From a virus: a stretch of 25,773 bases of DNA. Numbering within the stretch: the stretch's first letter is position 1; each line of letters opens with the position of its first letter. Below are positions 1 through 23,882 of this stretch, piece by piece. The translations under genes were made by a program, and so were the position numbers. Below the pieces are notes generated by a model. It made no database searches, was not told the DNA's origin, and saw nothing but the letters and a program-made list of their open reading frames with translations. The stretch lies in IMG/VR virus record IMGVR_UViG_3300032288_006230, positions 1-25,773 of that record; one strand, written 5' to 3'.

Positions 1-71
1 GGGAACAAATTACCCGCACCCTTGAGGCATTAGAAAAAATTGAGGAAATCCGCGGAAGAATCGTTGGATGA
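1..71 (+). CDS. C-terminal end of an upstream gene (partial)
   Basis: An open frame enters from the left edge (first full codon at 3) and ends with TGA at 69-71. The visible 22 residues end in EEIRGRIVG and are rich in Glu, Leu and Ile, compatible with the end of a helix or coiled coil. The stop sits one base before the ATG at 73 of the next gene, the tight spacing seen throughout the window. Function cannot be told from so short a piece. Confidence 0.55.
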   Translation, partial: EQITRTLEALEKIEEIRGRIVG

Positions 72-72
72 C

Positions 73-663
73 ATGAAATTTAAAGAACATGCCGTTGGCA
101 TTTGCCAATACGACAATATTTTTGATGCTGGGAATTTTATTGAACTCTTAGAAGAGGAATGTTCTCAGGATTGGGGATATGTGCGATGGGAAAAGTCTGC
201 CACTGGCGAAGGGCAAATTTCTAATACAAGAACATCAATGGGGTGCGAATTGATGCCTCTTGGTTCTAATGAAATTTCTATTGAGAGAGTGATGCCACTT
301 GCGTCTGAATGGCAGAAAATTTGGGAAAAAATTGACCCGATTGTTTGGGATTACAGGCACGTTTTTGAGTTGGACTTAGAAATGGACGAGGGGTACCGTG
401 TGCTCAAATATGGCGGTGGCGCCGAGTACCATGCTCATCATGACCATTTTAGAAATAATGCACGAAGTTTAAGCCTGGTTGCTTTTCTGAATGACAATTT
501 TACTGGGGGTAATCTTGTATTCCCTCGTTTTAATGTAAATATTCAACCAAAGGCCGGAAGCGTTATTATGTTCCCTTCCAATTACCCGTATTTGCATATT
601 GCTGAACCTGTAGGGGAAAAGGACAACACTGTTAAATATTCTCTAGTGACGTGGTTCCAGTGA
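73..663 (+). CDS. 2OG-Fe(II) oxygenase (prolyl-4-hydroxylase-like)
   Basis: A 196-residue protein of the 2-oxoglutarate/Fe(II) dioxygenase superfamily, which hydroxylates or otherwise oxidises a substrate using O2 and 2-oxoglutarate. The iron triad is visible: H122-x-D124 in the segment YHAHHDHF and distal H175 in YLHIAEPV. K188 (VKYSLVTWF) stands where the family has the Arg or Lys that binds 2-oxoglutarate. The segment GGNLVFPRF followed by KAGSVIMFPS is the usual strand pair of the double-stranded beta-helix core. I chose ATG 73 over the in-frame TTG at 40 because the preceding gene ends at 71 and a GGAAGAA sequence lies upstream at 54-60. It is the first of three such enzymes within 5.5 kb. 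The substrate is unknown; phage members are commonly found near structural genes. Confidence 0.85.
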   Translation: MKFKEHAVGICQYDNIFDAGNFIELLEEECSQDWGYVRWEKSATGEGQISNTRTSMGCELMPLGSNEISIERVMPLASEWQKIWEKIDPIVWDYRHVFELDLEMDEGYRVLKYGGGAEYHAHHDHFRNNARSLSLVAFLNDNFTGGNLVFPRFNVNIQPKAGSVIMFPSNYPYLHIAEPVGEKDNTVKYSLVTWFQ

Positions 664-821
664 CTCCAGAACCTGAAGAATCTAACGTTGAACAAATTAT
701 CGATGCTAATTTTGATTTAACTACAGGCCGATATAAGGAAAATGACGAAAGTATTGTTTCCTGCGCGATGCTTGACCAGCCTATAGTTTTTGTAATTGAG
801 GACGAGAATAATGGGTTATAA
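660..821 (+). CDS. small acidic hypothetical protein (53 aa)
   Basis: A GTG at 660 overlaps the stop of the dioxygenase gene (GTGA arrangement) and opens a 53-codon frame ending with TAA at 819-821, which in turn overlaps the start of the next gene at 811. The protein begins VTPEPEESNVEQIIDANFDL and ends in IVFVIEDENNGL. It is strongly acidic, with no signal peptide or membrane segment. The coupling at both ends, and the 147-base hole that would otherwise be left in a very compact operon, support it as real. No family recognised. Confidence 0.6.
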   Translation: MTPEPEESNVEQIIDANFDLTTGRYKENDESIVSCAMLDQPIVFVIEDENNGL

Positions 822-1080
822 CTTACAGAATGACTTTGACTATGTTCAAAACCAACTAGCGACGATTGCCGTAACAATCGGCATTGACTTGGCAGATATT
901 CAAACTCTAACCCTGGATGACCTCATGGAGTCCTGTAGTAATGTTTTTGGAGCAGCCAGCCATGACCCAAATTCCCCAATTGCGGTTGAACAGCATGCCG
1001 AATTGCGCAGACACCAAATGTCTTTAAGGCGATTTTGGTATCTTTTTCATGTTCTAAAATGGAGACTAGACAATGAATGA
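811..1080 (+). CDS. hypothetical small phage protein (89 aa)
   Basis: Begins MGYNLQNDFDYVQNQLA and reads as mainly helical, with an aromatic and basic C-terminus (RRFWYLFHVLKWRL). ATG 811 is preferred over the in-frame TTG at 796 because GAGG at 798-801 is placed as a ribosome binding site for 811. It overlaps the preceding 53-residue gene by 11 bases and the following gene by 8 bases, so it is probably translationally coupled. No domain recognised; such small proteins between phage structural and tailoring genes are often accessory. Confidence 0.7.
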   Translation: MGYNLQNDFDYVQNQLATIAVTIGIDLADIQTLTLDDLMESCSNVFGAASHDPNSPIAVEQHAELRRHQMSLRRFWYLFHVLKWRLDNE

Positions 1081-1768
1081 TAACTACAGTGTTTTCCAAA
1101 TGGCAAACCTGCTTTCACATACTGTTTCTTCGGACATTGATAAGGCAGCCATTGTTGCGAGCAATGCACAGTTCTTGCAGTCCGAGATAGCGACTGGCGT
1201 TGATAGAAACCGTTCAGCAATTGGCTATTCAGTCCAACTAAATTGGCTAGACCAAATTAGTGACGCATCTAGTTCTGCCATGGATATTGAAGTATTAACG
1301 CGCTCTATTGTGGAAATTGCTGTACGAATTAAAAACCCATCAAAAGTTATTTTTTATGGGATGAATTATATTCTAGCGTCAACGCTTGGCGATATTGTTC
1401 CGACGGTTCATTATGTAAATACCACAAGTATTGATTACATGGAAAAATACACAAATACGATTATACCGGAAGAAAAAATAATCTCTATGGAGAATTTTGT
1501 CAATGGGGACATTGACGAAGATTACGATTTGGCACTCATTGATGTTGAAATGGTCAGTCATGATTTTTCAATCATTGACAATGTATGGGCCAAACTGCCT
1601 TCGGGTGCTTTGATGATTCTTAATATTGTCAATGACTTTGGCTCACTGTACTCGTTAAAGAATAAGCACCCCTACTTTCAGTACTTGTCACGCCTCGCCG
1701 AAGATGATGACAAATACTTGTTTCATATTCCCGTAGCAACAGGTTTCACATTTGTGGTTAAAAAATGA
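1073..1768 (+). CDS. degenerate class I methyltransferase-like protein
   Basis: 231 residues. The second half has the order of elements of a Rossmann-type SAM methyltransferase: a hydrophobic strand (KVIFYGMNYILAS) where motif I would be, a second strand VHYVNTT, a loop with EKIISMENFV, the strand DYDLALIDVEM (motif IV-like) and a strand after LPSGALMILNIVND. The glycine-rich SAM loop is not recognisable, so SAM binding is doubtful. The N-terminal 90 residues are helical and unassigned. GGAGA lies upstream of the ATG. It overlaps the previous gene by 8 bases and the halogenase by 4 (ATGA), so it is probably co-translated with the halogenase. Alternatives are a non-catalytic Rossmann-fold partner or an unrelated fold. 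Confidence 0.55.
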   Translation: MNDNYSVFQMANLLSHTVSSDIDKAAIVASNAQFLQSEIATGVDRNRSAIGYSVQLNWLDQISDASSSAMDIEVLTRSIVEIAVRIKNPSKVIFYGMNYILASTLGDIVPTVHYVNTTSIDYMEKYTNTIIPEEKIISMENFVNGDIDEDYDLALIDVEMVSHDFSIIDNVWAKLPSGALMILNIVNDFGSLYSLKNKHPYFQYLSRLAEDDDKYLFHIPVATGFTFVVKK

Positions 1769-3240
1769 ACAGAAAAAAGATAGTAGTCATTGGTTCTGGA
1801 ACTGCAGGACTAGTGACGGCACTTATTATCAAAAATTACTTCAAAAATTATGAAGTGACTGTCGTTTCTTCTAGTAAAAAAGGTATCGTAGGCGTGGGCG
1901 AAGGCTCAACAGAACATTGGCGTCATTTTCAAGATTCTATTGGTATAGACGTTCATGACATGATTAAAAATGCCGACATTACGCACAAGTACGGTATTAG
2001 ATACGAAAATTGGACGAATCATACACCCGACTATTTCCATAGCGTTGGTGGGACAGGATTGAGTGCTGGAACATTCTGGGGCGGCTACGCACATGCGTTA
2101 GAAAATGACTGGCCGTTAACGAGTACTTTTTCTTGGCGCGGTTTAGTAGATAACAAAATCATTGATGCCGGTGACAAGACGCACTTTGGAACAAACCAGT
2201 ATCATTTTGATACCTTCAAATTAAACGCATATTTAACTAAAATTGGACAAGACAGAAAAATTCATTTTATTGATGCAGACGTAAATGATGTTGGCGTAGA
2301 TGAATATGGTTTTATTCAGCATGTAAAACTTGATTCATCTGAAAATGTTATTGACGGTGACTTTTTTGTTGATGCAACTGGCTTCAATAGAGAAATTTTA
2401 AGCAAAATATCAGATAACAATTTTGTTTCATATCGCAAGTATCTCCCATGCGATAGCGCAATTGCTTTCCCGACGGCATCTGACCCATCTGGCCAGATTC
2501 GTCCATACACACGAGCAAGAGCATTGAAGAATGGCTGGATGTGGGAAATCCCAACCCAAAAACGCCGTGGCAATGGCTATGTCTTCTCATCAGACTTCTG
2601 CTCTGTGGATGAAGCAATTAAAGAAGCGTCTGAAATTCATGGTTTTGAAGTAGAGCCAGCAAAAACGCTTGATTTTAAATCAGGTTACTTTAGTACAACA
2701 TGGAAGAATAATTGTGTCGCCGTTGGCCTTGCTGCGGGATTTGTTGAGCCACTTGAAGCAACGTCAATTTCCACAACAATCCAGCAGGCTCGTTTAATCT
2801 GTTCATATCTTCCGACGTTTTCTTATAAAAGAACATATGGAATTAAGGAATATCATCGTGTCATGGACTCCATTATGGAAAATATCCTTTGCATGATTTC
2901 ACTCCACTACATTTCGGATAGAAATGACACTCCAATGTGGGTGGAGCAACAAAAAGCGGAAAAACCGCCATTACTAATGCATCTTCTTGAATTATGGAAT
3001 ACCAGATGTCCAGAACATCATGACATACCTTCAACGGGATTTGAATTATTTGGCCCAGCACATTTGTGGCATGTAGCCCAAGGGCAGGGAGTGCTCAACA
3101 AGGAAGTTGCATCAATGCAGTTGGAAGCATACAATTCTCGTGAATCTTCTAGAAAAAATATTTCACAAATATCATCGGAACTCATTAACCAGAAATTGGT
3201 GGACCATGCGGAAGCGCTCAGAAAAACTGCAAATAGTTAA
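1765..3240 (+). CDS. flavin-dependent (tryptophan-type) halogenase
   Basis: 491 residues, normal for this family. These enzymes use FADH2, O2 and halide to make hypohalous acid, which is passed to a substrate held about 10 angstroms away. Seen here: an FAD dinucleotide motif GSGTAG at 10-15; GVGEGST at 43-49 (family GVGEAT); K75 in THKYGIRYENW, placed like the catalytic lysine of PrnA and RebH; the diagnostic W258-M-W260-E-I-P263 motif that separates halogenases from monooxygenases; and GLAAGFVEPLEATS with E331 where the family has its second key acid. The gene starts inside the end of the preceding methyltransferase-like gene (ATGA). No flavin reductase is visible nearby, so a host reductase would be needed. 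Cyanophages are known to carry a relative (VirX1), which makes a phage setting credible. Substrate and halide preference cannot be read from the sequence. Confidence 0.9.
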   Translation: MNRKKIVVIGSGTAGLVTALIIKNYFKNYEVTVVSSSKKGIVGVGEGSTEHWRHFQDSIGIDVHDMIKNADITHKYGIRYENWTNHTPDYFHSVGGTGLSAGTFWGGYAHALENDWPLTSTFSWRGLVDNKIIDAGDKTHFGTNQYHFDTFKLNAYLTKIGQDRKIHFIDADVNDVGVDEYGFIQHVKLDSSENVIDGDFFVDATGFNREILSKISDNNFVSYRKYLPCDSAIAFPTASDPSGQIRPYTRARALKNGWMWEIPTQKRRGNGYVFSSDFCSVDEAIKEASEIHGFEVEPAKTLDFKSGYFSTTWKNNCVAVGLAAGFVEPLEATSISTTIQQARLICSYLPTFSYKRTYGIKEYHRVMDSIMENILCMISLHYISDRNDTPMWVEQQKAEKPPLLMHLLELWNTRCPEHHDIPSTGFELFGPAHLWHVAQGQGVLNKEVASMQLEAYNSRESSRKNISQISSELINQKLVDHAEALRKTANS

Positions 3241-4021
3241 ACCAGACATTTTTCATGATTTACCAAAATTGAAGAAAAACCAAGTATTGCTTTCTTGCGT
3301 TGACCCAAATCTAATGGATGATTCATGTCGCCCGTATGCCAATAATGGGAATTGGCCCGAATGGTGGAAGAAACTAAGTGGTTCTGATGGGAGCCTTAAG
3401 AGATGTTCAGGGACGTCTGACTATCTTGCAACAGGTTTCACTATCCCCCTATGGGCAAAGTTGATGATTCGTCCATCTTTGAATGGGAAAAACTGGGATG
3501 CTAAATTTGATTTAGTCACTGATTTAGGGAACTATGGCATTGAAAGTTTTATGTATTCGCAAACAGGCGAATGTCCTGTTGCAAGAGCACGAAAACTTCA
3601 AGAATCGAACTACATTAAAGTTATTAACCCTTGGCTAATAAAAACTCCCCCAGGTTGGTCTTCTTTATTTCTCCCACCACTTTGGGACCCTAATCCGAAT
3701 TATACGATGCTCCCCGCAGTAGTTAATACGGATTATTACCACAATGCGCATATGGTGATTAATGTATTAACTAATGAGCCTTTTGAACTTGAGGTAGGAC
3801 GCCCGATGTGGCACGTAATTCCATTCAAAAGAACTAAAGAATCTGAACTATTATGGGGCGATACAAATGCCTATAATCTTCTGAAACATAGAGGATTCGG
3901 GGGTGGCTTTATGCCTAAAAGACAAAAAAGTAAATACAAAAAAATGCAAAGAGATGCCGATTCAGATTTAGCCACGCAAAAGAAAACATTTATTGATAAA
4001 ATAATGAGACGAGACGACTGA
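3206..4021 (+). CDS. uncharacterised halogenase-neighbour protein (possibly DUF6065-like)
   Basis: From ATG 3206 the protein is 271 residues and begins MRKRSEKLQIVKPDIF. A longer frame from 3107 would overlap the halogenase by 134 bases, so I reject it; GGTGGA just before 3206 can serve as a weak binding site. Recognisable blocks are a Trp/Pro-rich middle (KTPPGWSSLFLPP) and a beta-rich end (MVINVLTNEPFELEVGRPMW, then HVIPFKR), with a basic tail. These blocks recall a family of unknown function (DUF6065) often listed beside phage and cyanobacterial halogenases; I hold this only loosely. The tight overlap with the halogenase gene suggests a linked job, perhaps substrate presentation. Confidence 0.6.
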   Translation: MRKRSEKLQIVKPDIFHDLPKLKKNQVLLSCVDPNLMDDSCRPYANNGNWPEWWKKLSGSDGSLKRCSGTSDYLATGFTIPLWAKLMIRPSLNGKNWDAKFDLVTDLGNYGIESFMYSQTGECPVARARKLQESNYIKVINPWLIKTPPGWSSLFLPPLWDPNPNYTMLPAVVNTDYYHNAHMVINVLTNEPFELEVGRPMWHVIPFKRTKESELLWGDTNAYNLLKHRGFGGGFMPKRQKSKYKKMQRDADSDLATQKKTFIDKIMRRDD

Positions 4022-4030
4022 GGTTCTGAT

Positions 4031-4270
4031 ATGGAATTCAATATTACAGAAAACCAAAAAACTATTGCCAGAGAGACTGCACGCCGCCGTTTAGAAACAG
4101 AATTGTTTACCGCCGTCCTACTTGCAGGAGTGGACCCCGATGACCTAGAGTTGGTTGATGGCTCTTTTACTTGGCAACCAGATTTTTCAAACGCTGCCTA
4201 CAGCGACACCGCCCAACTTCACCTACGAGACATTCTTAATGTCTACGAAAAGTTTTTATCTCAAAACTAA
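4031..4270 (+). CDS. hypothetical small acidic protein (79 aa)
   Basis: Begins MEFNITENQKTIARETARRR, with one amphipathic helix followed by an acidic segment (GVDPDDLELVDGSFTW) and a C-terminal helix. GAGG at 4020-4023 stands 7 bases before the ATG, a good ribosome binding site. It lies between the halogenase neighbour and the second dioxygenase in the same direction. No family recognised; size and helical content resemble assembly or adaptor proteins of phages, but this is only an impression. Confidence 0.7.
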   Translation: MEFNITENQKTIARETARRRLETELFTAVLLAGVDPDDLELVDGSFTWQPDFSNAAYSDTAQLHLRDILNVYEKFLSQN

Positions 4271-4282
4271 ACTGAAAGGTCT

Positions 4283-4969
4283 ATGATGACCATCCAATTT
4301 TCTTGGCCTGCAGGGAAATCTTCAGCCATTATGGTTGCTGAAAATATTTTAAGCAAAGAATTATGTTCTTCAATTATTGATGAGTCTTCAAAATATTATG
4401 AGAGACTGTTTATACCGGGTCCAGTCATCAGTGGCGTGATGGCTAATGTTAAAAATACAATGGATTTTAGTTGGTCAAAAGAGAATCTAATAAATAACAA
4501 CATTCCACCAGAGCCATTGTCTACATATGAAATGGAACTCTCAAAGGCAATCTTTACTTCTGTTGGATATTATCGTGAACAATTTAAGTGGCTTTGGGAC
4601 TGGGTGGGTATTTGCGATACGGGATTTCGTATGCAAAGATATATTCGTGGTGAAGGTTTCTATAGGGAACACATTGACGGCGGGCCGGTTCCTGTAGTTA
4701 TCTTGAATCGTGTTCTCGGTGCTGTCGTTTATCTGAATGATGTCGAAGTTGGTGGGGAAACATATTTTCGCGAACAAGACATTTATGTGCCTGCCAAAGC
4801 AGGGTCAATAGCGTTATTTCCTGCGTATTGGACACATCCACATCAAGGGTGCGTGCCAATTTCAAATGACAAATGGATTGTTAGTACATTCATATTGGAA
4901 AATAGCGAAAATCAGCCTATTGACATGATTGACAACGGAGGGTCTTTAGCCAATGAGCACCTATTATGA
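4283..4969 (+). CDS. 2OG-Fe(II) oxygenase (second copy)
   Basis: 228 residues. The double-stranded beta-helix core shows the iron ligands H130-x-D132 (YREHIDGG), the strand LGAVVYLNDVEVGGETYF, then AGSIALFPAYW leading to H185 and H187 in THPHQG (one of these is the distal iron ligand), and K197 in DKWIVSTFI as the likely 2-oxoglutarate anchor. This is the prolyl-4-hydroxylase type of layout. The start may be ATG 4283 or ATG 4286; AAGG at 4276-4279 is better spaced for 4286. The sequence differs much from the first copy, so the two are not a recent duplication. Substrate unknown. Confidence 0.83.
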   Translation: MMTIQFSWPAGKSSAIMVAENILSKELCSSIIDESSKYYERLFIPGPVISGVMANVKNTMDFSWSKENLINNNIPPEPLSTYEMELSKAIFTSVGYYREQFKWLWDWVGICDTGFRMQRYIRGEGFYREHIDGGPVPVVILNRVLGAVVYLNDVEVGGETYFREQDIYVPAKAGSIALFPAYWTHPHQGCVPISNDKWIVSTFILENSENQPIDMIDNGGSLANEHLL

Positions 4970-5576
4970 CCCATTAACTAATCGCACGTTACACAAGAGA
5001 CCCCCAGCATTCATGGTTAATGAAGTTTTTGAGCCATCTGTATTCATTAAATTAAATGAAGACTTATCTTTACTGCAGGAGACCAAAGTAATTTCCTATG
5101 AGCCATCCCTGGGTAGATTCGGCATAAATAGTACGGAGAAAACAGAGTCTCCATTAGCGGAATATCATGAAATTTTATTAGACAAAGCCCGGTCCATATT
5201 TACCCCAACATTAAAACCTACTTACTGTCTGTGGGTAACCTATCGTGGATTTAGGGCACAACTGCCGAATCATGTTGATGACAATGCCTGCACCTACACA
5301 ATGGACTTGTGTGTCTCATACAAAACCCAATGGCCCATCTATGTTGAAGAACAAGAGATGTTGCCTGAGCCAAACCAAGCAGTATGTTATTACGGTGAGG
5401 ACCAATATCATTGGCGCGAACGTTTTCCTGACCCTGCGAACAATGAAGTTCAAATGATTTTCTTTCATTTTGCCGAACCGGAACATTGGTATTTTACTAA
5501 GGGGCCATCCCACTTGCATGAAGTTGCCCGCGCCAGACACGAGTACCAGAAAAAGAACGGCATCAAAGGCACATGA
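4953..5576 (+). CDS. 2OG-Fe(II) oxygenase-like protein (third copy)
   Basis: 207 residues, beginning MSTYYDPLTNRTLHKRPPAF. The core carries H107-x-D109 (PNHVDDNACTY) and a distal H153 (QYHWRERF) followed by strands VQMIFFHF, the spacing expected for a jelly-roll dioxygenase. The Arg or Lys that binds 2-oxoglutarate is not obvious: the equivalent stretch reads NEVQMIFFHF, so cosubstrate use is less certain than in the other two. GGAGGG near 4937-4942 is the binding site, rather far upstream, and the gene overlaps the previous one by 17 bases. Function inferred from fold motifs only. Confidence 0.7.
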   Translation: MSTYYDPLTNRTLHKRPPAFMVNEVFEPSVFIKLNEDLSLLQETKVISYEPSLGRFGINSTEKTESPLAEYHEILLDKARSIFTPTLKPTYCLWVTYRGFRAQLPNHVDDNACTYTMDLCVSYKTQWPIYVEEQEMLPEPNQAVCYYGEDQYHWRERFPDPANNEVQMIFFHFAEPEHWYFTKGPSHLHEVARARHEYQKKNGIKGT

Positions 5577-5869
5577 ATAAAATTGTTCAGTTTGAACAGA
5601 AGATAGTTGATGCTGTCAAAACAATGTCCAAGAAAGAATATTGGAATCGTCCTAACATTGTTGAGGCATGGGGCTTTGCGACAAAGATTCTCATTATCTT
5701 TCCTGGTTTACTTCTGGGCAAGCAGTGGTGGTGGCTGTACATTTTTGCCATCGTTTCCAGTATTTGTTTAATTTGGTCATCTACTAAGAAAACATTGCCG
5801 ACCATTATCCTCTTCAATGTTGCTTGGGTTGTCTTGGCGACTGCTTCGATTGTGAAACATTTCGTATGA
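5573..5869 (+). CDS. small integral membrane protein (98 aa)
   Basis: After a charged N-terminal 30 residues there are about three hydrophobic segments: TKILIIFPGLLLG, WWWLYIFAIVSSICLIW and TIILFNVAWVVLATASIV. The gene starts inside the stop of the third dioxygenase (ATGA), and its own stop overlaps the glycosyltransferase start. Membrane protein of unknown function. Its place directly before a glycosyltransferase could mean it presents a lipid-linked substrate, but it could also be an unrelated envelope protein. Confidence 0.7.
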   Translation: MNKIVQFEQKIVDAVKTMSKKEYWNRPNIVEAWGFATKILIIFPGLLLGKQWWWLYIFAIVSSICLIWSSTKKTLPTIILFNVAWVVLATASIVKHFV

Positions 5870-6642
5870 TTTCTATTATTACGCCCACATATAACACTCC
5901 GCAGGAAATCCTTGCCCGCACTTGGGGTTCTCTGAAGTCTCAGACCTTTACGGACTGGGAGTGGGTTGTCTGGGACGACTCCACGAACAATGAGACTTGG
6001 CGGCAACTATATGGCTTCTGTGCCGACGAGCGCTATAAACTTGCTATGCACCGGTCCCATGTCCATTCTGGCTCTATTGGAGAAGTCAAGCGGAACGGCT
6101 TCATGGTCGCCAAGGGAGACATCTTGGTTGAACTTGACCACGACGATGAGTTAATGCCAGATGCTCTGCAACTCATTAATGATGCATTTAATAGTAGTCC
6201 AGAGGTTGGTTTTGTTTATTCAGACTGGTGCGAAATACTCCCAGATGGGCAGTCAGGACGCTATCCGAGCGGTTGGGCCTTTGGGTACGGTAGTGACTAT
6301 TGGGACGAGCAGCACGGGGTTTGGACCATGCGTGCGCCTGAACTTAATACCGTCACAATGAGACACATCGTCTCAGCGCCCAATCACGTTCGTGCGTGGC
6401 GAGCCGACGTATATCACGCCCTTAATGGCCATGACTGGAATCTGAAGGTTGCCGACGACTATGACCTATGTGTGAGAACTTTCCTGACCACAAAGTGTTG
6501 CCATATCCCAAAGATGATTTACAAACAGCATATTTCGCCAAAGACCGCTCAACGGCAGCAAAATGCGCTTATTCAAGAAAATGTTGCAATTATTGCAGAG
6601 AAATACAAGCCTTTTCTTGATGACCTATTCGATAGGCTCTGA
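5866..6642 (+). CDS. family 2 glycosyltransferase (GT-A fold)
   Basis: 258 residues starting MISIITPTYNTPQEILARTW, the classic first strand of GT2 enzymes, which transfer a sugar from a nucleotide-sugar donor. The metal/nucleotide acidic motif is D91-H-D-D-E95 (DHDDE), followed by the helix MPDALQLINDAF. A later VADDYDLCVR segment resembles the catalytic-base helix (ED motif). I chose ATG 5866, which overlaps the previous stop as ATGA; a longer frame from 5824 lacks the clean domain start. No membrane segment, so cytoplasmic. It ends the first gene island; possible acceptors are a virion protein, DNA or a cell-wall glycan. Confidence 0.88.
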   Translation: MISIITPTYNTPQEILARTWGSLKSQTFTDWEWVVWDDSTNNETWRQLYGFCADERYKLAMHRSHVHSGSIGEVKRNGFMVAKGDILVELDHDDELMPDALQLINDAFNSSPEVGFVYSDWCEILPDGQSGRYPSGWAFGYGSDYWDEQHGVWTMRAPELNTVTMRHIVSAPNHVRAWRADVYHALNGHDWNLKVADDYDLCVRTFLTTKCCHIPKMIYKQHISPKTAQRQQNALIQENVAIIAEKYKPFLDDLFDRL

Positions 6643-9578: not shown

Positions 9579-12578
9579 ATGGGGAATATGACAAAACGGG
9601 GACTAATTTCATTTTGGCTTATTGCTGCCCTTGCTTGGTTCGCGCCTGCAAATGTTTATGCGACCAATGCGAACCTACTAGTTAATGGCAATTTTTCTGC
9701 CAACGAAGGTGGGTGGGTGGGCGCTAATGGTGGAGCGTCTTGCTCTGGAGGCTCACCAAGTCTTGGGATTTGGGGTGGTGGACCACAACTGACGTTTAGT
9801 TATATGCAGAATTCCGTATCACAGCAAGTGAACATTGCCTCCCCATCGGAACTAGAACTATCCTTCCTTGCCAATGGGCCTAATGGTGGAACATATAGCG
9901 CGACGATTTCCGACTCGGACCAATCTGTAACAACTGGAGTACTGACTGCGGGGGAAAATCAAGTATCCAATTTGAGGATAACCACGACACAACAAGATGA
10001 AATAGTTACCGTTACTTTTTCTGGCGTAGATTCTCTATTTTGGGCTGGATGCTATGGGCCAGTAATAAGGAATGCTTCGCTGACAGTAGTTACACAGCCA
10101 ACCTCGCTGGTAGTTACGAGTCTTTTGGATGACGGCTCCGTTGGAACGCTACGTTGGGCGATAAATCAAGCAAACGCCATATCTGGTGGAATTCATGACT
10201 CCATTACCTTTGGCGTTGATGGTACGGTTTCGTTAACGAGTGCGTTGCCTCAAATTACACAATCCGTGACAGTCACTGGAAACGGTATTGCCAACACAAT
10301 CATTGATGGAAATAACTCTTATCGTTTATTTGATGTTCGCACAGCAAGAACTTTAACTATCTCCAACATGACCCTCAAGAGAGGTCAATCAACGAGTGGT
10401 GGCTTAATTTATATCAATAACGGAACAGTCAATGCTTCCAATATGCGCCTAACTTCAATGACTGGCGGAAGTGCAGTGTTTACAAGCAACAACTTTTCGT
10501 ATGCTACTTACACAGACTCAACATTTGACAATCTGAGTGTTGGTATTGCTGGAGACTGGGGCAATACCCCATCTTTGGGTAATGGAGTTACTTCTTGGGA
10601 TACTTTTGATGACTCTGGTTTCTCAAACAGAACGTACGTTATTCGTGGACAATTCACAAACAACACATACGCCATCAATAATTATAGATTCACAAAAATT
10701 GAAGACTCCACATTCACAAATAACACTTATGCTGCGTTTATTACTGGATGGAACAGGTCGCAAATATATGGTTCTACATTCACCAATAATACGGTAGCAA
10801 TTTATCATTCGGCAACCATAACTGGTGGCGCAAATATGGGCACCGATAACCGAATCATTGTCGGTAATAGTTTTGTAAATAACACTTCTGCAATAGTTTT
10901 ATCTGACCAATATCAAGTCGGTGGAATTATTCAGAAAAATCAGAATTCAGCAAAAATATCTAATAATAATTGGGATGTTAATGCTTCACCTGGGGCAAAA
11001 TACATAACTTATTATCAATTCCCAGACAACACTACGCCACTATACGCCCTGCCTGACTCTACTGGCGTTCCGTGGTCGGGCACTGGAAACAGCGTCGTCA
11101 CAACCACGACGACAACTACAACAACCACCACTATCCCCGAGCCCACATTTAGTGGCGGAGGATGTGGCCCCTACAATAGAATAACCGTAACGGGTCAGTC
11201 TGCTGGTTCAATCTGGGGAGATGGCCCTTACACCGATGACTCTAATTTTGGCGTCGCTGCGGTTCATGCAGGATTAATTGACGTAGGAGAAACGGCAATA
11301 CTTGAACCGTATGGAGTTGATAATTATCCATACTTCTATGGCACAACAAAAAATGGTGTTTCTACTTCAGCATGGGGGAGTAGTTGGTGCGGTTTTTATA
11401 TAAAAATTGCAGGAACCGAAACTCCTGAGTATAACTATCCAGGTCCAACTACAACTACGACGACCACAACTACAACTACCACCACGACACCAGAACCAGA
11501 ACCTACAGAACCCCCAGATACGACACAGCCCGAACCGGAGCCTACGGACCCTCCGGACACAACAGAACCTGAGCCAGAACCTACTTTGCCTCCTGATACA
11601 ATACCTGAGGAGACAGATACTACTGATGGAGGTCCTGATGGAGGAACCGGAAGTTCAACCGACACAACGTCACCCGAAACAACCGTACCTGAATCAGCCC
11701 CAGAAGAAGAAACGCCAGATACGACACCGGACATACCGGTAGAAGAAGAAACGCCAGAGGCAGTCGTTGACGACATTCTGGCCGATGACCCCTCACCAGA
11801 AGAACTGACAGATGCTGTTGGTGAAGCATTGGCTGCGACTGAGTCAGAAGAAGAACTTGTCAGCGTTGCTACTGAACTCTTGACATCAGACCTTGACGCC
11901 GAGCAATTCGCTGCAGTAGTTGCCGAAGTGTTCAGTCAGGATTTATCCGACGAAGCACTCACTGAACTCGTTACTACGGTTTTTGAACAGGATTTGTCAG
12001 ATGAAGAAATTGCTGCCGTCGTAGGCCAGGTATTCACCGCTGACATTAGCGACGAAGCATTCGCTGAAGTTCTCAATACGGTATTTGAAGAGCCACTAAG
12101 CGACGATGCCTTTGCATCGGTCATTGATGCAATCTTAGACGAACCAATTTCGGATGAAGCATTCGATGAACTTGTTGACGTCCTCGGTAGTGACACGGTT
12201 AGTGATGAGCAAGTCGTGGCTGCAGTTGACTCCATTATTGAAAATGGCCTTTCTGAAGAGCAATCAATAAGCATTGCTACAAGTGGCGAGGTGTTGGAGT
12301 CAGTCACGGGCGACCAGGCTTCTGAAATCTTCGCCACCGTTCCAATTGGCGATATCTCGGACGCCGAGGCTGCTGCTCTTGTTGAGGCCGTACAGGACGC
12401 ACCTGTGGAAGTCAAAGAATCATTTGAGACAGAGATTAATATTTTTGCAGCAGGAAATGTAGACACTTATGTGCCACTTGGTTCTGAGGTTCCAGTAGGT
12501 ACTAGGCGTGTCATTATTGCTGCTGCGGCAGTTGTTGTTGCAGTAGCGCCAGTACCAGTATCTAGAAAAGGGAGATAA
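9579..12578 (+). CDS. secreted membrane-anchored beta-helix/LCCL surface protein
   Basis: 999 residues. In order: a Sec signal peptide (about 1-29, hydrophobic GLISFWLIAALAWF, likely cleavage after VYA); a domain starting NLLVNGNFSANEGGW, like carbohydrate-binding jelly rolls (30-175); a right-handed beta-helix (about 178-490) opening with SLLDDGSVGTLRWAINQANA; a Thr-rich linker (507-522); an LCCL domain (about 526-612) with GSIWGDGPYTDDS, AAVHAGLI and NGVSTSAWGS; a second Thr/Pro/Glu linker (from 623); ten acidic 17-residue repeats (738-907); and a C-terminal hydrophobic segment followed by SRKGR. This is a cell-surface protein architecture, not a normal virion protein. The start may be ATG 9579 or ATG 9588; the GGGGA between them is too close to 9588 to decide. 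Likely captured from an actinobacterial host, and expected outside the infected cell, held by the C-terminal helix. Confidence 0.85.
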   Translation: MGNMTKRGLISFWLIAALAWFAPANVYATNANLLVNGNFSANEGGWVGANGGASCSGGSPSLGIWGGGPQLTFSYMQNSVSQQVNIASPSELELSFLANGPNGGTYSATISDSDQSVTTGVLTAGENQVSNLRITTTQQDEIVTVTFSGVDSLFWAGCYGPVIRNASLTVVTQPTSLVVTSLLDDGSVGTLRWAINQANAISGGIHDSITFGVDGTVSLTSALPQITQSVTVTGNGIANTIIDGNNSYRLFDVRTARTLTISNMTLKRGQSTSGGLIYINNGTVNASNMRLTSMTGGSAVFTSNNFSYATYTDSTFDNLSVGIAGDWGNTPSLGNGVTSWDTFDDSGFSNRTYVIRGQFTNNTYAINNYRFTKIEDSTFTNNTYAAFITGWNRSQIYGSTFTNNTVAIYHSATITGGANMGTDNRIIVGNSFVNNTSAIVLSDQYQVGGIIQKNQNSAKISNNNWDVNASPGAKYITYYQFPDNTTPLYALPDSTGVPWSGTGNSVVTTTTTTTTTTTIPEPTFSGGGCGPYNRITVTGQSAGSIWGDGPYTDDSNFGVAAVHAGLIDVGETAILEPYGVDNYPYFYGTTKNGVSTSAWGSSWCGFYIKIAGTETPEYNYPGPTTTTTTTTTTTTTTPEPEPTEPPDTTQPEPEPTDPPDTTEPEPEPTLPPDTIPEETDTTDGGPDGGTGSSTDTTSPETTVPESAPEEETPDTTPDIPVEEETPEAVVDDILADDPSPEELTDAVGEALAATESEEELVSVATELLTSDLDAEQFAAVVAEVFSQDLSDEALTELVTTVFEQDLSDEEIAAVVGQVFTADISDEAFAEVLNTVFEEPLSDDAFASVIDAILDEPISDEAFDELVDVLGSDTVSDEQVVAAVDSIIENGLSEEQSISIATSGEVLESVTGDQASEIFATVPIGDISDAEAAALVEAVQDAPVEVKESFETEINIFAAGNVDTYVPLGSEVPVGTRRVIIAAAAVVVAVAPVPVSRKGR
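11097..11135 (+). repeat. ACN-repeat coding a threonine linker (first)
   Basis: Runs of ACA, ACC and ACG triplets encode an unbroken threonine stretch linking the beta-helix to the LCCL domain. Such tracts are typical O-glycosylated or extended linkers in actinobacterial surface proteins and may vary in length by slippage. Confidence 0.75.
11444..11625 (+). repeat. threonine tract and PEPT/PPDT linker repeats
   Basis: A second ACN tract (11444-11491) is followed by tandem units of the type PEPEPTEPPDTT, PEPEPTDPPDTT and PEPEPTLPPDT. They form an extended proline-rich spacer between the LCCL domain and the acidic repeat region, suited to span a cell wall. Confidence 0.75.
11790..12299 (+). 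repeat. ten tandem 51-base units coding 17-residue acidic helical repeats
   Basis: Residues 738-907 fall into ten units of exactly 17, for example LSDEALTELVTTVFEQD, LSDEEIAAVVGQVFTAD, ISDEAFAEVLNTVFEEP and LSDDAFASVIDAILDEP. Each begins [LIV]S[DE][ED] and is probably a short helix ending in an acidic turn. The units are diverged at the DNA level, so the array is old. Function unknown; a rigid stalk is plausible. Confidence 0.8.
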
Positions 12579-12825: not shown

Positions 12826-13629
12826 ATGAGCAAATATCCTTTTGTTAAACTGGTAGTGCCAACGGCATTGAAGGCATACAAGAACGGTCAACTTCCGGCG
12901 AATCTTTTGGCAAAAGTCAAAACTGGTGGACAAATGTATGCCCCAGTTGCAGAACAATTCAACAAGATGTACGACGCTGCTCTTGCTGCTGGTTTCAAAC
13001 TCAAAAATGTGGGCGACTACCGCTCATTTGAGGGCCAGTTGAACATGTTCATGGACCGCTACGTCACTACCGACACTGGTACCGGCGTCAAGCGCCAGTA
13101 CGACGGCAAGACTTGGTATCTCAAGAAGGGCAAGGCCCCTTCAGCAGCGCCGGACCCCACGGGCCTCAAGGGCTCAAATCATGGCTGGGGTCTCGCGATT
13201 GACCTTGGGTACGACGTCAACGGCAAACTCACCTCAATGGGTGGCGCTTGTGGCGACTGGATGTGCGCGAATGCACCCAAGTGGGGCTTCTACCTCCAGG
13301 GCGACAACCCTGCTTCAAAAGAATTTGAACTATGGCACTGGCAATACGCCCTCGGCGATGCATTGCCTAATGGCTCTGTCGCGTCCGCCCCTGCAGCGGC
13401 TCCAGCAGCACCTGCTGGCGGTGGCATGAAATTTGATTACCCAGGAGCGCCTATCAAACTTGGCTCAAAAGGTCCTGGCGCCGCTCTCGTTCAGGCAATT
13501 ATTGGCGCAAAAGCAGACGGTGACTTTGGTCCGAAGTCTGTTGCCTCGCTCAAAGCATGGCAAACCGCCAACGGTCTTACTGCAGATGGTTCGGTCGGCC
13601 CTATTACATGGAAGAAAATGTTTGGCTGA
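12826..13629 (+). CDS. endolysin: M15 (VanY-type) peptidase with peptidoglycan-binding domain
   Basis: 267 residues from ATG 12826; the in-frame TTG at 12814 is part of the binding site TTGGAGA, so I reject it as start. Zinc-peptidase motifs of the D-Ala-D-Ala carboxypeptidase/endopeptidase family M15 are complete: H119 and D126 in SNHGWGLAIDLGYD, E168 and H171 in EFELWHWQY. After an Ala/Pro linker (about 184-203), residues 205-267 form a peptidoglycan-binding type 1 domain (KLGSKGPGAALVQAIIGAKA, DGDFGPKSVASLKAWQ, DGSVGPITWKKMFG). No signal peptide, so a holin should release it. It would cut the peptide part of host peptidoglycan. Its local base composition is richer in G and C than its neighbours. 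Confidence 0.92.
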   Translation: MSKYPFVKLVVPTALKAYKNGQLPANLLAKVKTGGQMYAPVAEQFNKMYDAALAAGFKLKNVGDYRSFEGQLNMFMDRYVTTDTGTGVKRQYDGKTWYLKKGKAPSAAPDPTGLKGSNHGWGLAIDLGYDVNGKLTSMGGACGDWMCANAPKWGFYLQGDNPASKEFELWHWQYALGDALPNGSVASAPAAAPAAPAGGGMKFDYPGAPIKLGSKGPGAALVQAIIGAKADGDFGPKSVASLKAWQTANGLTADGSVGPITWKKMFG

Positions 13630-16376: not shown

Positions 16377-16748
16377 TCACACCTTGATGGCGTTACGTTC
16401 TTTGAGTACTTTTGCTATTTTCTTTCGCTTAACATTGCTTTCAGGAAGTTCACGAAGGCGCTCGTATTCAACTGTCAATTTGAGCCGTTCAATATAGGCG
16501 ATATTGCCCTTGCGATGGCGATGAGACCAGCCAGCGGTGCCGCCCCACACCCCGGATACCTCGTGATTTTCTAGAGCGTATTCCGCACACTTGACAATGA
16601 CTGAGCACCCAGAACAGAAGTCCTCGGCTTGTCTATGTCTACTGCGAACATTCGTTTCTTCAGGGTCGGGGAAGAAAATTTCTGGGTCAGCACCGCGACA
16701 CTTGGCGCGAGAAAACCATGCAACATTGGCAATATTGTCTGTAGTCAT
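16377..16748 (-). CDS. WhiB-family iron-sulphur transcriptional regulator
   Basis: 123 residues from MTTDNIANVAWFSRAKC. The four cluster-binding cysteines are C17, C45, C48 and C54 (C-x2-C-x5-C in FCSGCSVIVKC), followed by the G66-V-W-G-G70 turn and a basic C-terminus (WSHRHRKG and KRKKIAKVLKERN) that should touch DNA. WhiB proteins hold a 4Fe-4S cluster and bind the major sigma factor's region 4. I chose the ATG at 16748 because the longer frame overlaps the neighbouring gene. It is transcribed after the 1027-residue gene with a 34-base gap. Confidence 0.92.
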   Translation of the reverse strand: MTTDNIANVAWFSRAKCRGADPEIFFPDPEETNVRSRHRQAEDFCSGCSVIVKCAEYALENHEVSGVWGGTAGWSHRHRKGNIAYIERLKLTVEYERLRELPESNVKRKKIAKVLKERNAIKV

Positions 16749-16782
16749 TGGGCCACAGCCTAGCGATGATGGCCCAAAATTA

Positions 16783-19700
16783 CTACCAGTCTGGCGGTAA
16801 TGCTTCCTCGTTGAGGTCGCGGAAATCGTACGACAGCGCAATGCTCTTGTAACTAAAACGCTCTGCAAGTCTGCCGCGCCTGTCAATGCCAAACATTTCG
16901 TCGCTCTTAATATTGATTCCCTTGTCTGCGAGCCAAGCAACCAATTCACCGGGCTGAATACCTAGTGCTCTCGCTACGTCACGTCGAATAGTTCCCATCC
17001 GTGCGCCGGTCAACTCGCCTGGAGACTTGCCTTTGAGTATTTGGTACATCTCGCCAAGTACTTCATTTTTTCCTTTGCCACTTGCCAGCAATTCCTTGGC
17101 AGTACTTAGTGCAACCTGCGTGGCATTGGCGCCAGGCTTGGAGCCACGCTGTGCATATGCGCCACGAGACTGAACCATGCCCTCAATGAGGAGACGGATG
17201 CCCGCATCTGGGATATCAAATTTCTTGCTCAGCGCAGCAATTGCCTTGACTTGCTGTTGGTTATTTTCTTGCATTGCCTGTGGGAACGCATTGCGAATTT
17301 CAGCAACAAAACCCGCCCATTCCTTTATTTTACTTGGGTCCGAAAGCATTGAATTGCCGAAGATATTGCCAAGACCACGGAACGGGTCGCTGCCATTAAC
17401 TCGCGTAATGCCTCCACCGCCAGGGTATAGGGCATCAATGACTTGCTGAGTAACGCCAGATTTGCCCTTCCATCTTTCTTCGTACTCACTCTTGAGTAGT
17501 CCTCCGAGCGTTCTATCTACAAGTAATCTTGCAAGAACTGGGGATACATCATTTAGTCGTTGAAAAATGTCCTCATCTAGTTGTTCTTTTCGGCCCACTT
17601 CTTCATTCTTGTCTCTAATGAGAGCCTTCAGTCTATTAAAGAAGTTATTGTATGCTTTTTCTGCTTCATCGTTATCGGCTAGATTGGGTAATTGCACAAA
17701 CCGCCCGCTAGTAGAAGCGTCCTCTGGCGAGGTGCCTCCAGCAATATTGCTACCGAGACCACTACCACCACCTGTGCCTTGTTCTGAAGGCGCCTGGTCA
17801 AAGCCACTACCGCCCATATCTATTGATACGTTGGCTCTGTCGGGGTCGTTGTCGTCGTAGGTTCCAAATGTGTCGCCGAACTCTCCACTATCATCGTCAC
17901 TCCCAGCAGGAGCATCAAGTGACAATGCGAGTTTTCGCCTTTGAATAACTTTTTGCTTGCCAGTCTTTGGGTCGATTTCTGGGACCTTATTCCCGTCGGC
18001 ATCTAATAAAAACGTGCCGTCTTTGGCCCTTACCCACTGCGGTTCAGGCTCAAACAAGACAGCCTTTTGTTGGGCCTCTTTGCGTCCTAGTGCGCCACTG
18101 AGAGTTCTTTCCAGCGCCTTGACCATTTCCGCAATGGTATTCGGTCGCGGATTGCCATCCTTGTCATTGACAAATGGGTGCCCTCCAAGTGGGAACTTCA
18201 AAGCCTCTGGGAATCCTAAAGTATCAGAAACTTTTTTATCCCACCATTTTGTGCTGCCATCTTTATCCACGGGGACCCATGCCAAGAATGAAAAGTCACC
18301 CTTCTCCATCATTGGCATATAGTTAGCCACAACTGCGGCAAGAATCTCCTGACGAAGGTCTTCTGTCATCCCTTGCGCTTTTGCTGATACACCAGCAGTA
18401 CGCGGTCCATCGTATCCAGGCCAGTTGAACATACTACCTTGTACGGCCGCCATCACTGCGGGCAGCCATGTATCTTCAACAAACTGCTTGAGTTTACGTT
18501 GTTCTCTTTGACTTAATGGCAGGCCATCCTGTTGAGGGAATAATGACTCTCCAAGTTTGCGCTTACCTGCATTGGATGCAGAGCGAGTTGAGCGGATTGA
18601 TAGGAGTGTTGATTCTGGGGTGAAGGTAGCAACTTGATGGTCGCGACTTACAGATTCCCCGATTGATTCATGATTCGGTGGCCGCTTGAGGCCTGACGAA
18701 TTAGATTTCATTCGGTCATAAATATCCTTACGGACCGCCGCATTGGTTTCTCTCTTGAACGCTTGATACAGCGGCTCATTCTTCTTCTTGGCAGCCAATG
18801 ATGCCTTTGTATGGAATTGAACTTCATAGTTAAATCCACGCGGGTCTTGAATCATTGCATTTACGCCACTATATGGGTCCTTGGAGCCCCAGTAGTTCCA
18901 AGTAGTGACGCGAGACCCATCTGCTCTAAGCGTAGCCAACGCCGACTTGACGAAATCGGAGTAGTCGTCAACACCGTCTGTAACAAACGTATAACGCAAT
19001 GCGTCATTCATCTGTACTGCCGTTGCACCTATATCGCCATCAAAATTGCCCTTGAGACGCTCAATCTTATTTGCAAACGAGTCAAGTGTTTTGAATTTTT
19101 TATCCAAATCAGCAAGTTTGGCAAAGCCGCCAGATGCTGACTCAATATCTTTCATTTTCTTGGTTACTTGAGGTTCGTTTCTACGGATAACCCTCTGTGC
19201 TGCTTTTGCAACTTCTACCGTATCGTCGGAAGGCTTTTCGCTACCCTTGGATGTAGAGCGCAACGACGAAATTGCAGGCGAACCTGGCAACGCTGGGCGC
19301 GCCCACGGGGTTCCCTCTTGTACGGTTCCATCATTATCGCCGTCAATGGCTTTCGGGTCGTATTTTTCAACAGACCGACCAACTCGCCTAAGCGTCTGGC
19401 CCAATCCTTTGGCCTGGATTCCAGAACCTACACGCACTTCTGCTTCAAAGTCGCGACGGTTTTGCTTTATCTCTTTTGCAAATTCTGTGTCTTCCTCTTG
19501 TGCAGTTGATGAACTAATTATGTCTTCATCAGGGAAGTAAGTGGCAATTTCGCGTGCTTTTTTATATAGCCATTTTGTATATTCGTAAGCATCATCTTCA
19601 GAAACAAAACGGCCAAGGTGTCCGCCTGTCTTTTTGTAGAGACGGACTGATTGCTGGTCGCTCATATCCTGGCCAATTGGATTTATCTTTGGCAAGATTG

Positions 19701-22927: not shown

Positions 22928-23581
22928 GTGACAACCATTGTCGCCATTCAGGGTGACGGATTCGCCGTACTAGGGACTGACAGCAGGCTGTCCACGGTTG
23001 ATACGGCTGGATATGTGACTCGAATTCACACAATGAACAGTAGCGTCTCTAAAATTTCCCAGATTAACGGGATGCTCATAGGCATTGCTGGCGATGTGCG
23101 GGCAATCAACCTTGTTGCTCACTCATTTCAAGCACCACAGGCATCGGCATCATTGCGTGGGAAAAAACTAGATGACTATGTAACAAACAAGTTCATCCCT
23201 GCCCTTCGTGCGTGCTTTGATGCAAATGGTTATTCGTCTCCACAAAAAGAATCATCAGACCACATGGCTGAACAAGGCTCCGAAATGCTCCTTGCTGTCA
23301 ATTCGGTTATCTATCAAATTGACAACGATTATGCGTGGAGCAATGACGCTTCTGGTCTCTATGCAATAGGCACCGGCGAGCAATATGCAATAGGAGCGCT
23401 TGCTGCCCTATTGAAGACAAAAGCGACGGCAGTTGCAGTAGCAAAAAAACAATGCCTAAATGCACTGGCAATCGCGGCCAAGTATGACCCTCATACTGGG
23501 CACCCATATCAAACATTTCAGCAAGATAATTCTAGCACTACGCGTAGAACAGTGAAACCTAAGAATGAAGGGAAGGTCTAA
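22928..23581 (+). CDS. proteasome-beta/HslV-like Ntn hydrolase
   Basis: 217 residues from GTG 22928. After removal of Met the chain starts TTIVAIQGDGFAVLGTDSR, the hallmark of HslV and 20S beta subunits: Thr1 nucleophile, Asp17 at exactly the family position (GTDSR) and a Lys near position 41 in SVSKISQINGMLIGIAGD, taking the part of Lys33. No propeptide is visible, so it resembles HslV-type or self-starting beta subunits. The AIGTGEQYAIGALAALL segment fits the family's C-terminal helix region. Length is normal for a beta subunit. It lies between the metallophosphoesterase and a WhiB gene. No ATPase partner is in the window. It may self-assemble or replace a host subunit. Confidence 0.85.
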   Translation: MTTIVAIQGDGFAVLGTDSRLSTVDTAGYVTRIHTMNSSVSKISQINGMLIGIAGDVRAINLVAHSFQAPQASASLRGKKLDDYVTNKFIPALRACFDANGYSSPQKESSDHMAEQGSEMLLAVNSVIYQIDNDYAWSNDASGLYAIGTGEQYAIGALAALLKTKATAVAVAKKQCLNALAIAAKYDPHTGHPYQTFQQDNSSTTRRTVKPKNEGKV

Positions 23582-23582
23582 A

Positions 23583-23882
23583 GTGGACATCATACCCCCA
23601 CTATTCCAGACCTTTGTATGGATGGATGATGCTAATTGTCGAGGCAAAACAGAAAAGATGTTCCCTCGCGAACATAAAGATATTACCTATATCGTTGAGG
23701 CTCGCGCTCTGTGCTCGGACTGTCCGGTAAAGTCTCAATGCTTGGAATATGCACTTGAATTCCCGCCCGCTGACATGCATGGCGTATGGGCAGGCTTAAC
23801 TAGTAGACAACTTGCTGCAGAACAACGACGTAGAGAAGTGGGCCCGAAGCGCCCTACGCTTGCTCAAATGTGGGGCGGCTAA
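23583..23882 (+). CDS. WhiB-family regulator (second copy)
   Basis: 99 residues if started at GTG 23583, favoured because GGGAAGG at 23571-23577 is well spaced and the previous gene ends at 23581; ATG 23565 would overlap it. Cysteines C19, C44, C47 and C53 (ALCSDCPVKSQC) bind the 4Fe-4S cluster, with the turn GVWAG following and a basic tail (RQLAAEQRRREVGPKRP). It is only distantly like the first WhiB, so the phage carries two independent members. It ends convergent with the next leftward gene, overlapping by four bases. Confidence 0.9.
   Translation: MDIIPPLFQTFVWMDDANCRGKTEKMFPREHKDITYIVEARALCSDCPVKSQCLEYALEFPPADMHGVWAGLTSRQLAAEQRRREVGPKRPTLAQMWGG

Follow-up and report, generated by a model that had tools for sequence, protein, structure and literature searches.

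A halogenase and oxygenase gene module beside glycine-rich tail-tip genes of freshwater and marine phages suggests modification of the host-gripping protein

Clusters that combine a halogenase gene with several 2-oxoglutarate (2OG) oxygenase genes have been described in cyanophages (S-SSM6a and relatives; Iyer et al. 2021) and assigned to a secondary metabolite or to the decoration of capsules (PMC7824862); this role, DNA repair, nitrogen sensing and antibiotic protection make up the earlier readings of such cyanophage genes (PMC3037559, PMC2984593, PMC7824862). Phage halogenases and the many 2OG oxygenases of aquatic phages have hitherto been classed as auxiliary metabolic genes, their roles being guesses: DNA repair, nitrogen sensing, antibiotic synthesis or capsule decoration (same references). 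For virion proteins, glycosylation by the phage itself has been considered, two glycosyltransferases being suggested, for example, to act on a capsid (PMC11256854). Here we analyze an operon at positions 73-6642 (+ strand) of the virus record IMGVR_UViG_3300032288_006230 from IMG/VR (hereafter the window, that is, the whole analyzed stretch of 25,773 bases). The operon encodes a flavin-dependent halogenase (HAL), three 2OG oxygenase-like proteins (OxyA, OxyB and OxyC), a dUTPase-fold protein adjoining the halogenase (HALN), a methyltransferase-fold protein (MTL), a glycosyltransferase (GT), a probable membrane protein (TM) and three small proteins (sm1 to sm3). In related loci, this block lies beside genes for glycine-rich putative tail-tip adhesins, and we consider it fairly probable that the operon constitutes the downstream portion of a module for tailoring tail adhesins, in which the enzymes hydroxylate and halogenate the adjacent adhesin.

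The gene block and its putative adhesin neighbors

A search of IMG/VR with HAL as the query yielded 79 loci, the open reading frames (ORFs) of which were clustered into families. The eleven-gene set recurs in the same order in 16 loci (HAL 72-96% identical), with sm1 occasionally lost or GT displaced, and more diverged loci (HAL 45-57% identical) keep the core OxyA-HAL-HALN, often together with OxyB. Immediately upstream of the block, the relatives carry two paralogous glycine-rich genes, ADH1 and ADH2, followed by the small gene f9 and a paralogue of sm3. The window begins inside this sm3 paralogue, a twelfth gene (1..71, +) that is truncated by the contig end: what remains, in bases 3-71, encodes the C-terminal 22 residues, which are identical to those in locus L001. 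The DNA at the contig start is 96-98% identical to L001 and L002, where the sm3 paralogue comes right after the adhesin genes or f9 and ADH2 sits just upstream. Because the contig starts inside the sm3 paralogue, the adhesin genes are not in the window, and the probable substrate gene is located just left of the contig end.

The full module thus takes the form adhesin 1 - adhesin 2 - f9/sm3 - OxyA - HAL - HALN, with MTL, OxyB, OxyC, TM and GT as optional additions. In the first set of loci, 58 adhesins are followed by 4 kb or more of sequence; MTL lies within 6 kb of 18 of them, OxyC of 20, TM of 24 and GT of 6. The widespread core consists of the adhesin, an OxyA-type oxygenase, HAL and HALN. 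A preliminary description of the operon had presented the genes as a set acting on a single target (perhaps a tail or capsid protein, a peptide encoded by one of the small genes, or a host metabolite) and had named rare co-occurrence and a lost order as the signs of unrelated cargo. The order is largely kept in the 16 IMG/VR loci and the core persists in the diverged ones, so that the genes do not behave as unrelated cargo. A conserved unit does exist, and a tail protein is the best supported of the suggested targets; the unit, however, is not the eleven-gene set, given the sparse distribution of MTL and GT. The peptide proposal was abandoned because sm1 and sm2 are missing from most distant loci, where HAL and the oxygenase-family (OXY) genes are retained. 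Variation on the side of the adhesins was also noticed: two phages (L123 and L127; IMG/VR 3300042545_001591 and 3300042291_001557) each carry a tandem pair of ADH-OXY-HAL-HALN modules, as if for two alternative adhesins with separate sets of enzymes, and in L112 and L136 further OXY-family genes stand in a row upstream of ADH, beyond the usual downstream set.

The ADH2 protein comprises about 400-1,100 amino acids (19% Gly), with a conserved N-terminal domain, glycine-rich motifs at either end and a low-complexity center in which His (median 15.9%; n = 141), Asn, Gly, Pro and Ala abound. Its gene is located after the tail fiber genes, and the center diverges fast: in pairs of loci with HAL 80-90% identical (median 87%), the variable region of ADH2 is 48% identical, compared to 80% for HALN. 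Given the glycine-rich motifs, the position behind the fibers and the rapidly diverging center, ADH2, and with it the paralogous ADH1, appears to be a putative tail-tip adhesin. Neither ADH2 nor the glycine-rich protein gp38 of cyanophage Syn9 matched any PDB chain by sequence, and the N-terminus of the window-type adhesin (ADH2 of L001) had no match among named phages.

In the reverse test, the ADH N-terminus served as the sole bait in two further sets of loci, which were dereplicated at 90% identity and required to extend for 4 kb or more downstream. Within a distance of 6 kb, HAL is present in 64 of the resulting 65 ADH2 groups, an OXY gene in 61, HALN in 56 and all three in 53. The arrangement is not uniform: in 104 loci the block follows the adhesin on the same strand, whereas 8 loci have it inverted, 9 have it upstream and 4 have it interleaved. 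The sole group lacking HAL (L244) was considered as a natural enzyme-free adhesin, with a variable region that is not His-rich (1.7%); it proves nothing because the contig is truncated on the side where relatives carry the module. The module also turned up in HALN-encoding contigs that are assigned to bacterial metagenome-assembled genomes: L169 and L170 carry ADH-OXY-HAL-HALN, and in L168 the module follows an end-truncated Gly/His-rich fragment, so that these three contigs are probably viral.

The enzymes are linked to dissimilar adhesins as well. Marine loci encode a second glycine-rich tail protein, of cyanophages (PF21722; phrog_863, 'tail fiber assembly'), for which no similarity to ADH was detected. 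With this family as the bait, 44 loci were obtained, and HAL is present in all 40 with usable downstream sequence (8 inverted), usually together with HALN and several 2OG oxygenase genes. In the marine loci L246-L289, usually three glycine-rich tail genes stand in tandem ahead of the enzymes, as if co-tailored. Within the window's own HAL clade, a third glycine-rich protein replaces ADH in L021 and L022 and HAL is kept, and glycine-rich proteins accompany 2OG genes and HAL in L051/L052 and L047/L060. Viewed from the side of the halogenase, 31 dereplicated genes had flanking sequence, and 25 of them have a glycine-rich gene within 6 kb; of the six that do not, three (in L068 and L074) are inside long multi-halogenase blocks, with the glycine-rich genes further off. 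Glycine-rich proteins account for 106 of 616 ORFs within 5 kb of HAL and for 1 of 120 beyond 7 kb. On the basis of the adhesin-bait and halogenase-bait tests, we rejected chance co-location. In a tree of 108 halogenases, the clade of the window HAL has 59 members, 56 of them ADH-linked, and the linked halogenases of the cyanophage type fall largely into another clade.

Among named phages, all 18 records that contain a member of the Syn9 gp38 family also carry HAL no further than about 3.5 kb away, as judged by comparing positions by hand. In the first 140 kb of Syn9, a Gly content of 17% or more in ORFs of 150 amino acids or longer is confined to gp36, gp38 and gp39, which directly precede the halogenases gp41 and gp42, the HALN protein gp43 and most of the 2OG genes. 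VirX1 (PDB 6qgm), the halogenase of cyanophage Syn10, matches Syn10 CPUG_00131 over its full length, in a block of the same type. A natural difference among isolates is seen in S-RIM44. Two of them (KX349294 and KX349293) carry, between the tail fiber and the neck gene gp13, a block of three glycine-rich genes, two HAL, HALN and oxygenase-type genes (four match oxygenase profiles). At the same site, KX349292 and KX349295 have a different fiber, a tip protein that is not glycine-rich (12% Gly) and a single 2OG gene, HAL and HALN being absent there; the downstream flank is 96.6% identical between the two isolate types. This difference indicates that adhesins and enzymes are gained and lost as one cassette.

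Proteins encoded in the window

The ORF coordinates bear out eleven same-direction genes with repeated stop/start overlaps, most of them overlapping their neighbors, and the enzyme assignments made in the preliminary description mostly held. The halogenase (1765..3240, +; core) matches PF04820 (Trp_halogenase) with 340 bits against a cut-off of 21 (E = 2.4e-101) and VirX1 at 7e-35 (phmmer). The counterparts of the catalytic Lys and Glu in an alignment with the tryptophan halogenases of the PDB, K75 and E328, are conserved in 100% of 150 homologues, and the glycines of the FAD-binding motif (G10/G12/G15) in 93-94%, so that the full motif set claimed for HAL is present and the protein is, judging by its sequence, an intact member of the flavin-dependent halogenase family. 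The best alignments with tryptophan halogenases stop at residues 417-429 of 491, and the C-terminal segment that binds free tryptophan is not alignable by sequence. The QhpG model matches HAL weakly (2.3e-8), with a score far under the model cut-off.

The three diverged oxygenases with an HxD...H triad were likewise substantiated, the triad being 97-100% conserved in each family. OxyA (73..663, +; core) is of the prolyl-4-hydroxylase type (PF13640, 3.9e-15), with prolyl 4-hydroxylases as the nearest relatives (phmmer, 6e-8), and OxyB (4283..4969, +) is a second Fe(II)/2OG oxygenase (PF13640, 2e-8); both matches exceed the curated cut-off, and the triads H122/D124/H175 and H130/D132/H187, respectively, are 97-99% conserved in 150 homologues. 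OxyC (4953..5576, +; accessory) is more diverged: no curated Pfam family of 2OG enzymes was matched, the sole hit being phrog_2954 (6.5e-13), and the label 2OG-like follows from its triad alone (H107/D109/H153, 100% conserved in 39 homologues). The proposed glycosyltransferase (5866..6642, +; accessory) was assigned to family 2 (PF00535, 1.5e-15) and is similar to polysaccharide enzymes.

The methyltransferase-like protein MTL (1073..1768, +; accessory) retained its label in part. Its AlphaFold2 (AF2) model (pLDDT 76) resembles class I O-methyltransferases in Foldseek (E = 3.7e-8, probability 1.00); there is no Pfam match, and glycine motif I for binding S-adenosylmethionine is not recognizable in the family alignment, where the corresponding stretch of the window protein is VIFYGMNYILASTLG and the column is not conserved. 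Because of this absence, we speak of a methyltransferase fold rather than of a methyltransferase. No match to MTL was found among named phages. Besides MTL, the Pfam scan of the window ORFs assigned no family to OxyC, HALN and the small genes. The latter are sm1 (651..821, +), which is confined to close relatives in the locus comparison, the accessory sm2 (811..1080, +) and sm3 (4031..4270, +), identified as the paralogue of the contig-start gene by family clustering. TM (5573..5869, +), taken from the ORF list, is a small hydrophobic, probably membrane protein that is accessory and nonetheless widespread in the locus comparison; family searches gave no family for it.

HALN (3206..4021, +; core) matches phrog_7084 (1.3e-22). 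Its AF2 model (pLDDT 81) aligns with dUTPases in Foldseek (E = 8.8e-5, TMt 0.73), whereas the dUTPase profile PF00692 is matched by 1 of 30 family members (1.1e-6), the other 29 giving no match at 0.01. In the stretch VNTDYYH, which resembles dUTPase motif III, the position of the usual catalytic Asp is, as read by eye, occupied by Asn or His in most members. HALN is thus modeled with a beta-clip dUTPase fold and lacks the family-level dUTPase sequence motifs. Two HALN-family genes without a halogenase occur near ribonucleotide reductase genes (L085, 6953-7834, in the archaeal virus HSTV-4, and L167, 6839-7633, in the cyanophage S-RIM4, where HALN adjoins the reductase gene), a context that agrees with the dUTPase-like fold and hints at an earlier role related to nucleotides. 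In HSTV-4, HAL is absent, and the HALN relative is two small genes away from a glycine-rich 'putative adhesin' for which homology to ADH was not detected with a hidden Markov model.

Outside the operon, the window contains two genes for WhiB-type transcription factors (16377-16949, - strand, and 23565-23882, + strand; PF02467, 2.8e-18 and 8.7e-15), which indicate an actinobacterial host. The tail region encodes a secreted-looking protein of 999 amino acids (9579-12578, +) that combines an LCCL domain with repeats rich in Thr, Pro and Glu. A VanY carboxypeptidase with a peptidoglycan-binding domain (12826-13629, +) is a probable endolysin. A proteasome/HslV-like Ntn-hydrolase (22928-23581, +; PF00227, 1.2e-5), unusual for a phage, adjoins a calcineurin-like phosphatase.

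Function of the module and alternative explanations

Under the scenario that we favor, the phage would produce the glycine-rich tail-tip adhesins late in infection, and the 2OG oxygenases would hydroxylate the exposed variable region during or after translation, the likely acceptors being His, Asn, Asp or Pro. HAL, supplied with reduced flavin and halide by the host, would halogenate aromatic side chains. Trp was rejected as a general halogenation site: in the 141 variable regions of ADH2, Trp is missing from 49, Tyr from one and His from none, and one region lacks both Trp and Tyr; Tyr or His are therefore the likelier acceptors. HALN would probably serve as an adaptor or assembly factor, and the extra methyl-, glycosyl- and oxygenase genes, where present, would attach further groups. 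The modified tip may differ in binding to the host surface or resist damage. There are precedents for action of this superfamily on peptidyl residues: the flavoprotein QhpG introduces two hydroxyl groups into a peptidyl Trp (PMC7876137), and a brominase of ribosomally synthesized and post-translationally modified peptides (RiPPs) is likewise a flavin-dependent enzyme (PMC10858898).

Several observations weigh against this scenario. A modified residue has been observed in no case. Some halogenases do not adjoin glycine-rich genes, namely those of P-SSM2, HTVC008M, L048 and L049 and the other S-RIM44 halogenase, at 167 kb, which implies that the halogenase family has other roles as well. The composition of the adhesins differs by family, with His making up a median of 16% of the variable region in one family and 2-5% or about 1% in others, so that no single target residue fits all; His-richness was accordingly rejected as a universal mark, being a property of the window's adhesin family. 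Virion mass spectrometry of S-SZBM1 lists the fiber ORFs 51-54 and not the glycine-rich ORFs 48-50. The S-SZBM1 HAL (ORF 46) and 2OG proteins (ORFs 43 and 44) are unlisted too, which fits enzymes that are not part of the virion; with respect to modified adhesins, these data neither support nor exclude. Finally, the baits were taken from adhesins of enzyme-bearing loci, and therefore common descent adds to the linkage. The bait searches do not fully separate function from inherited synteny; the inversions, the permutations, the dissimilar adhesins and the S-RIM44 swap argue for function.

The alternative that fares best, although we regard it as unlikely, is that the enzymes synthesize or modify a small molecule or a glycan of the host surface by halogenation, hydroxylation and glycosylation, for instance an antibiotic-like compound or the capsule during infection, their proximity to the tail genes being a matter of late expression. 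Small molecules are the usual substrates of the enzyme families in cells, GT resembles polysaccharide enzymes, cyanophage clusters of halogenase and 2OG genes were given this very role (PMC7824862), and the S-SSM6a cluster also includes carbamoyltransferase and cytidylyltransferase genes. Yet no scaffold-forming biosynthetic gene was found among the window ORFs scanned with Pfam, the operon included, and most loci lack the sugar and methyl genes, whereas the adhesin, OXY, HAL and HALN stay together. Moreover, the cassette exchanged in S-RIM44 includes the adhesin, and even S-SSM6a has glycine-rich tail-region genes upstream of its cluster. A modification of some other virion protein of the tail region, be it a collagen-like or long tail fiber, ADH1 or the f9 product, in place of the His/Asn-rich ADH2, strikes us as rather improbable. 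The affinity of OxyA to prolyl 4-hydroxylases and the collagen-like Gly-X-Y fibers encoded upstream in many loci speak for it; however, many loci that keep the block have no collagen-like fiber (for example, L156-L159), the adhesin is the constant neighbor, and a fiber ORF of S-SZBM1 was detected by standard mass spectrometry. It is most improbable that the enzymes are passengers in 2OG metabolism, DNA repair or, via HALN, nucleotide metabolism, held in place by inherited synteny and modular exchange of tail tips: although cyanophage 2OG genes have been proposed to function in DNA repair or nitrogen signaling (PMC3037559, PMC2984593) and the dUTPase-like HALN sits beside ribonucleotide reductase in S-RIM4, the inverted and permuted arrangements, the dissimilar adhesin families and the joint gain and loss are hard to explain in this way, and the catalytic residues are retained in all lineages.

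With regard to the tailoring of the adhesin by these enzymes, a broader proposition can be made, the chances of which we see as about evenly balanced: aquatic phages, from actinophages to cyanophages, would possess a dedicated system for post-translational halogenation and hydroxylation of the receptor-binding adhesin, and VirX1 and its relatives would be protein-modifying enzymes with the adjoining glycine-rich tip protein as the natural substrate. If true, phages would have a system of a categorically new kind, in which the virus chemically diversifies its own receptor-binding protein and the binding surface gains a chemistry that the twenty amino acids do not offer; this would bear on host range and on the discovery of halogenases that accept polypeptides. 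The constant partner gene provides the question of the native substrates of VirX1-type enzymes with a testable target.

Relation to known systems

The enzyme families, the cyanophage clusters of halogenase and 2OG genes and the idea of virion glycosylation are all known, and the initial assessment that no described phage system has this gene set was too strong in view of these clusters (PMC7824862). What appears to be undescribed is the linkage of the module, HALN included, to adhesins, together with its spread and the adhesin swap: a literature search that lacked most subscription journals found no link between halogenase/2OG clusters and tail adhesins. The S-SSM6a-type clusters share with the module a Trp_halogenase-family gene and several 2OG oxygenases in a phage; they were described without an adhesin or HALN, whereas here glycine-rich adhesins and HALN are the constant partners. 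VirX1 belongs to the same family as the window HAL, and its gene follows glycine-rich tail-fiber genes and precedes HALN and 2OG genes; it differs in being about 26% identical to the window HAL (tblastn) and in its placement in another clade. The enzyme was reportedly characterized on small aromatic substrates (Nature Chemistry, 2019).

The gp38 proteins of the T-even type (S16, PP01, CkP1) are receptor-binding fiber-tip proteins with polyglycine helices, in which glycine-rich motifs combine with variable segments. The putative adhesins would share with them the place at the fiber tip and this combination of motifs and segments; they differ in that ADH2 and Syn9 gp38 gave no sequence match to any PDB chain. 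QhpG and the RiPP brominase are, similarly to the proposed role of HAL, flavoenzymes of the halogenase superfamily that act on polypeptide residues, but they are cellular and act on an enzyme subunit and on the precursor of a natural product. HALN shares its fold with the dUTPase superfamily and differs from it in that 29 of the 30 members lack a PF00692 match. Finally, the glycosylation of virion proteins by phages resembles the module in that phage enzymes would act on the phage's own structural proteins; it involves one or two glycosyltransferases, with no halogenase, oxygenases or adhesin-linked cassette.

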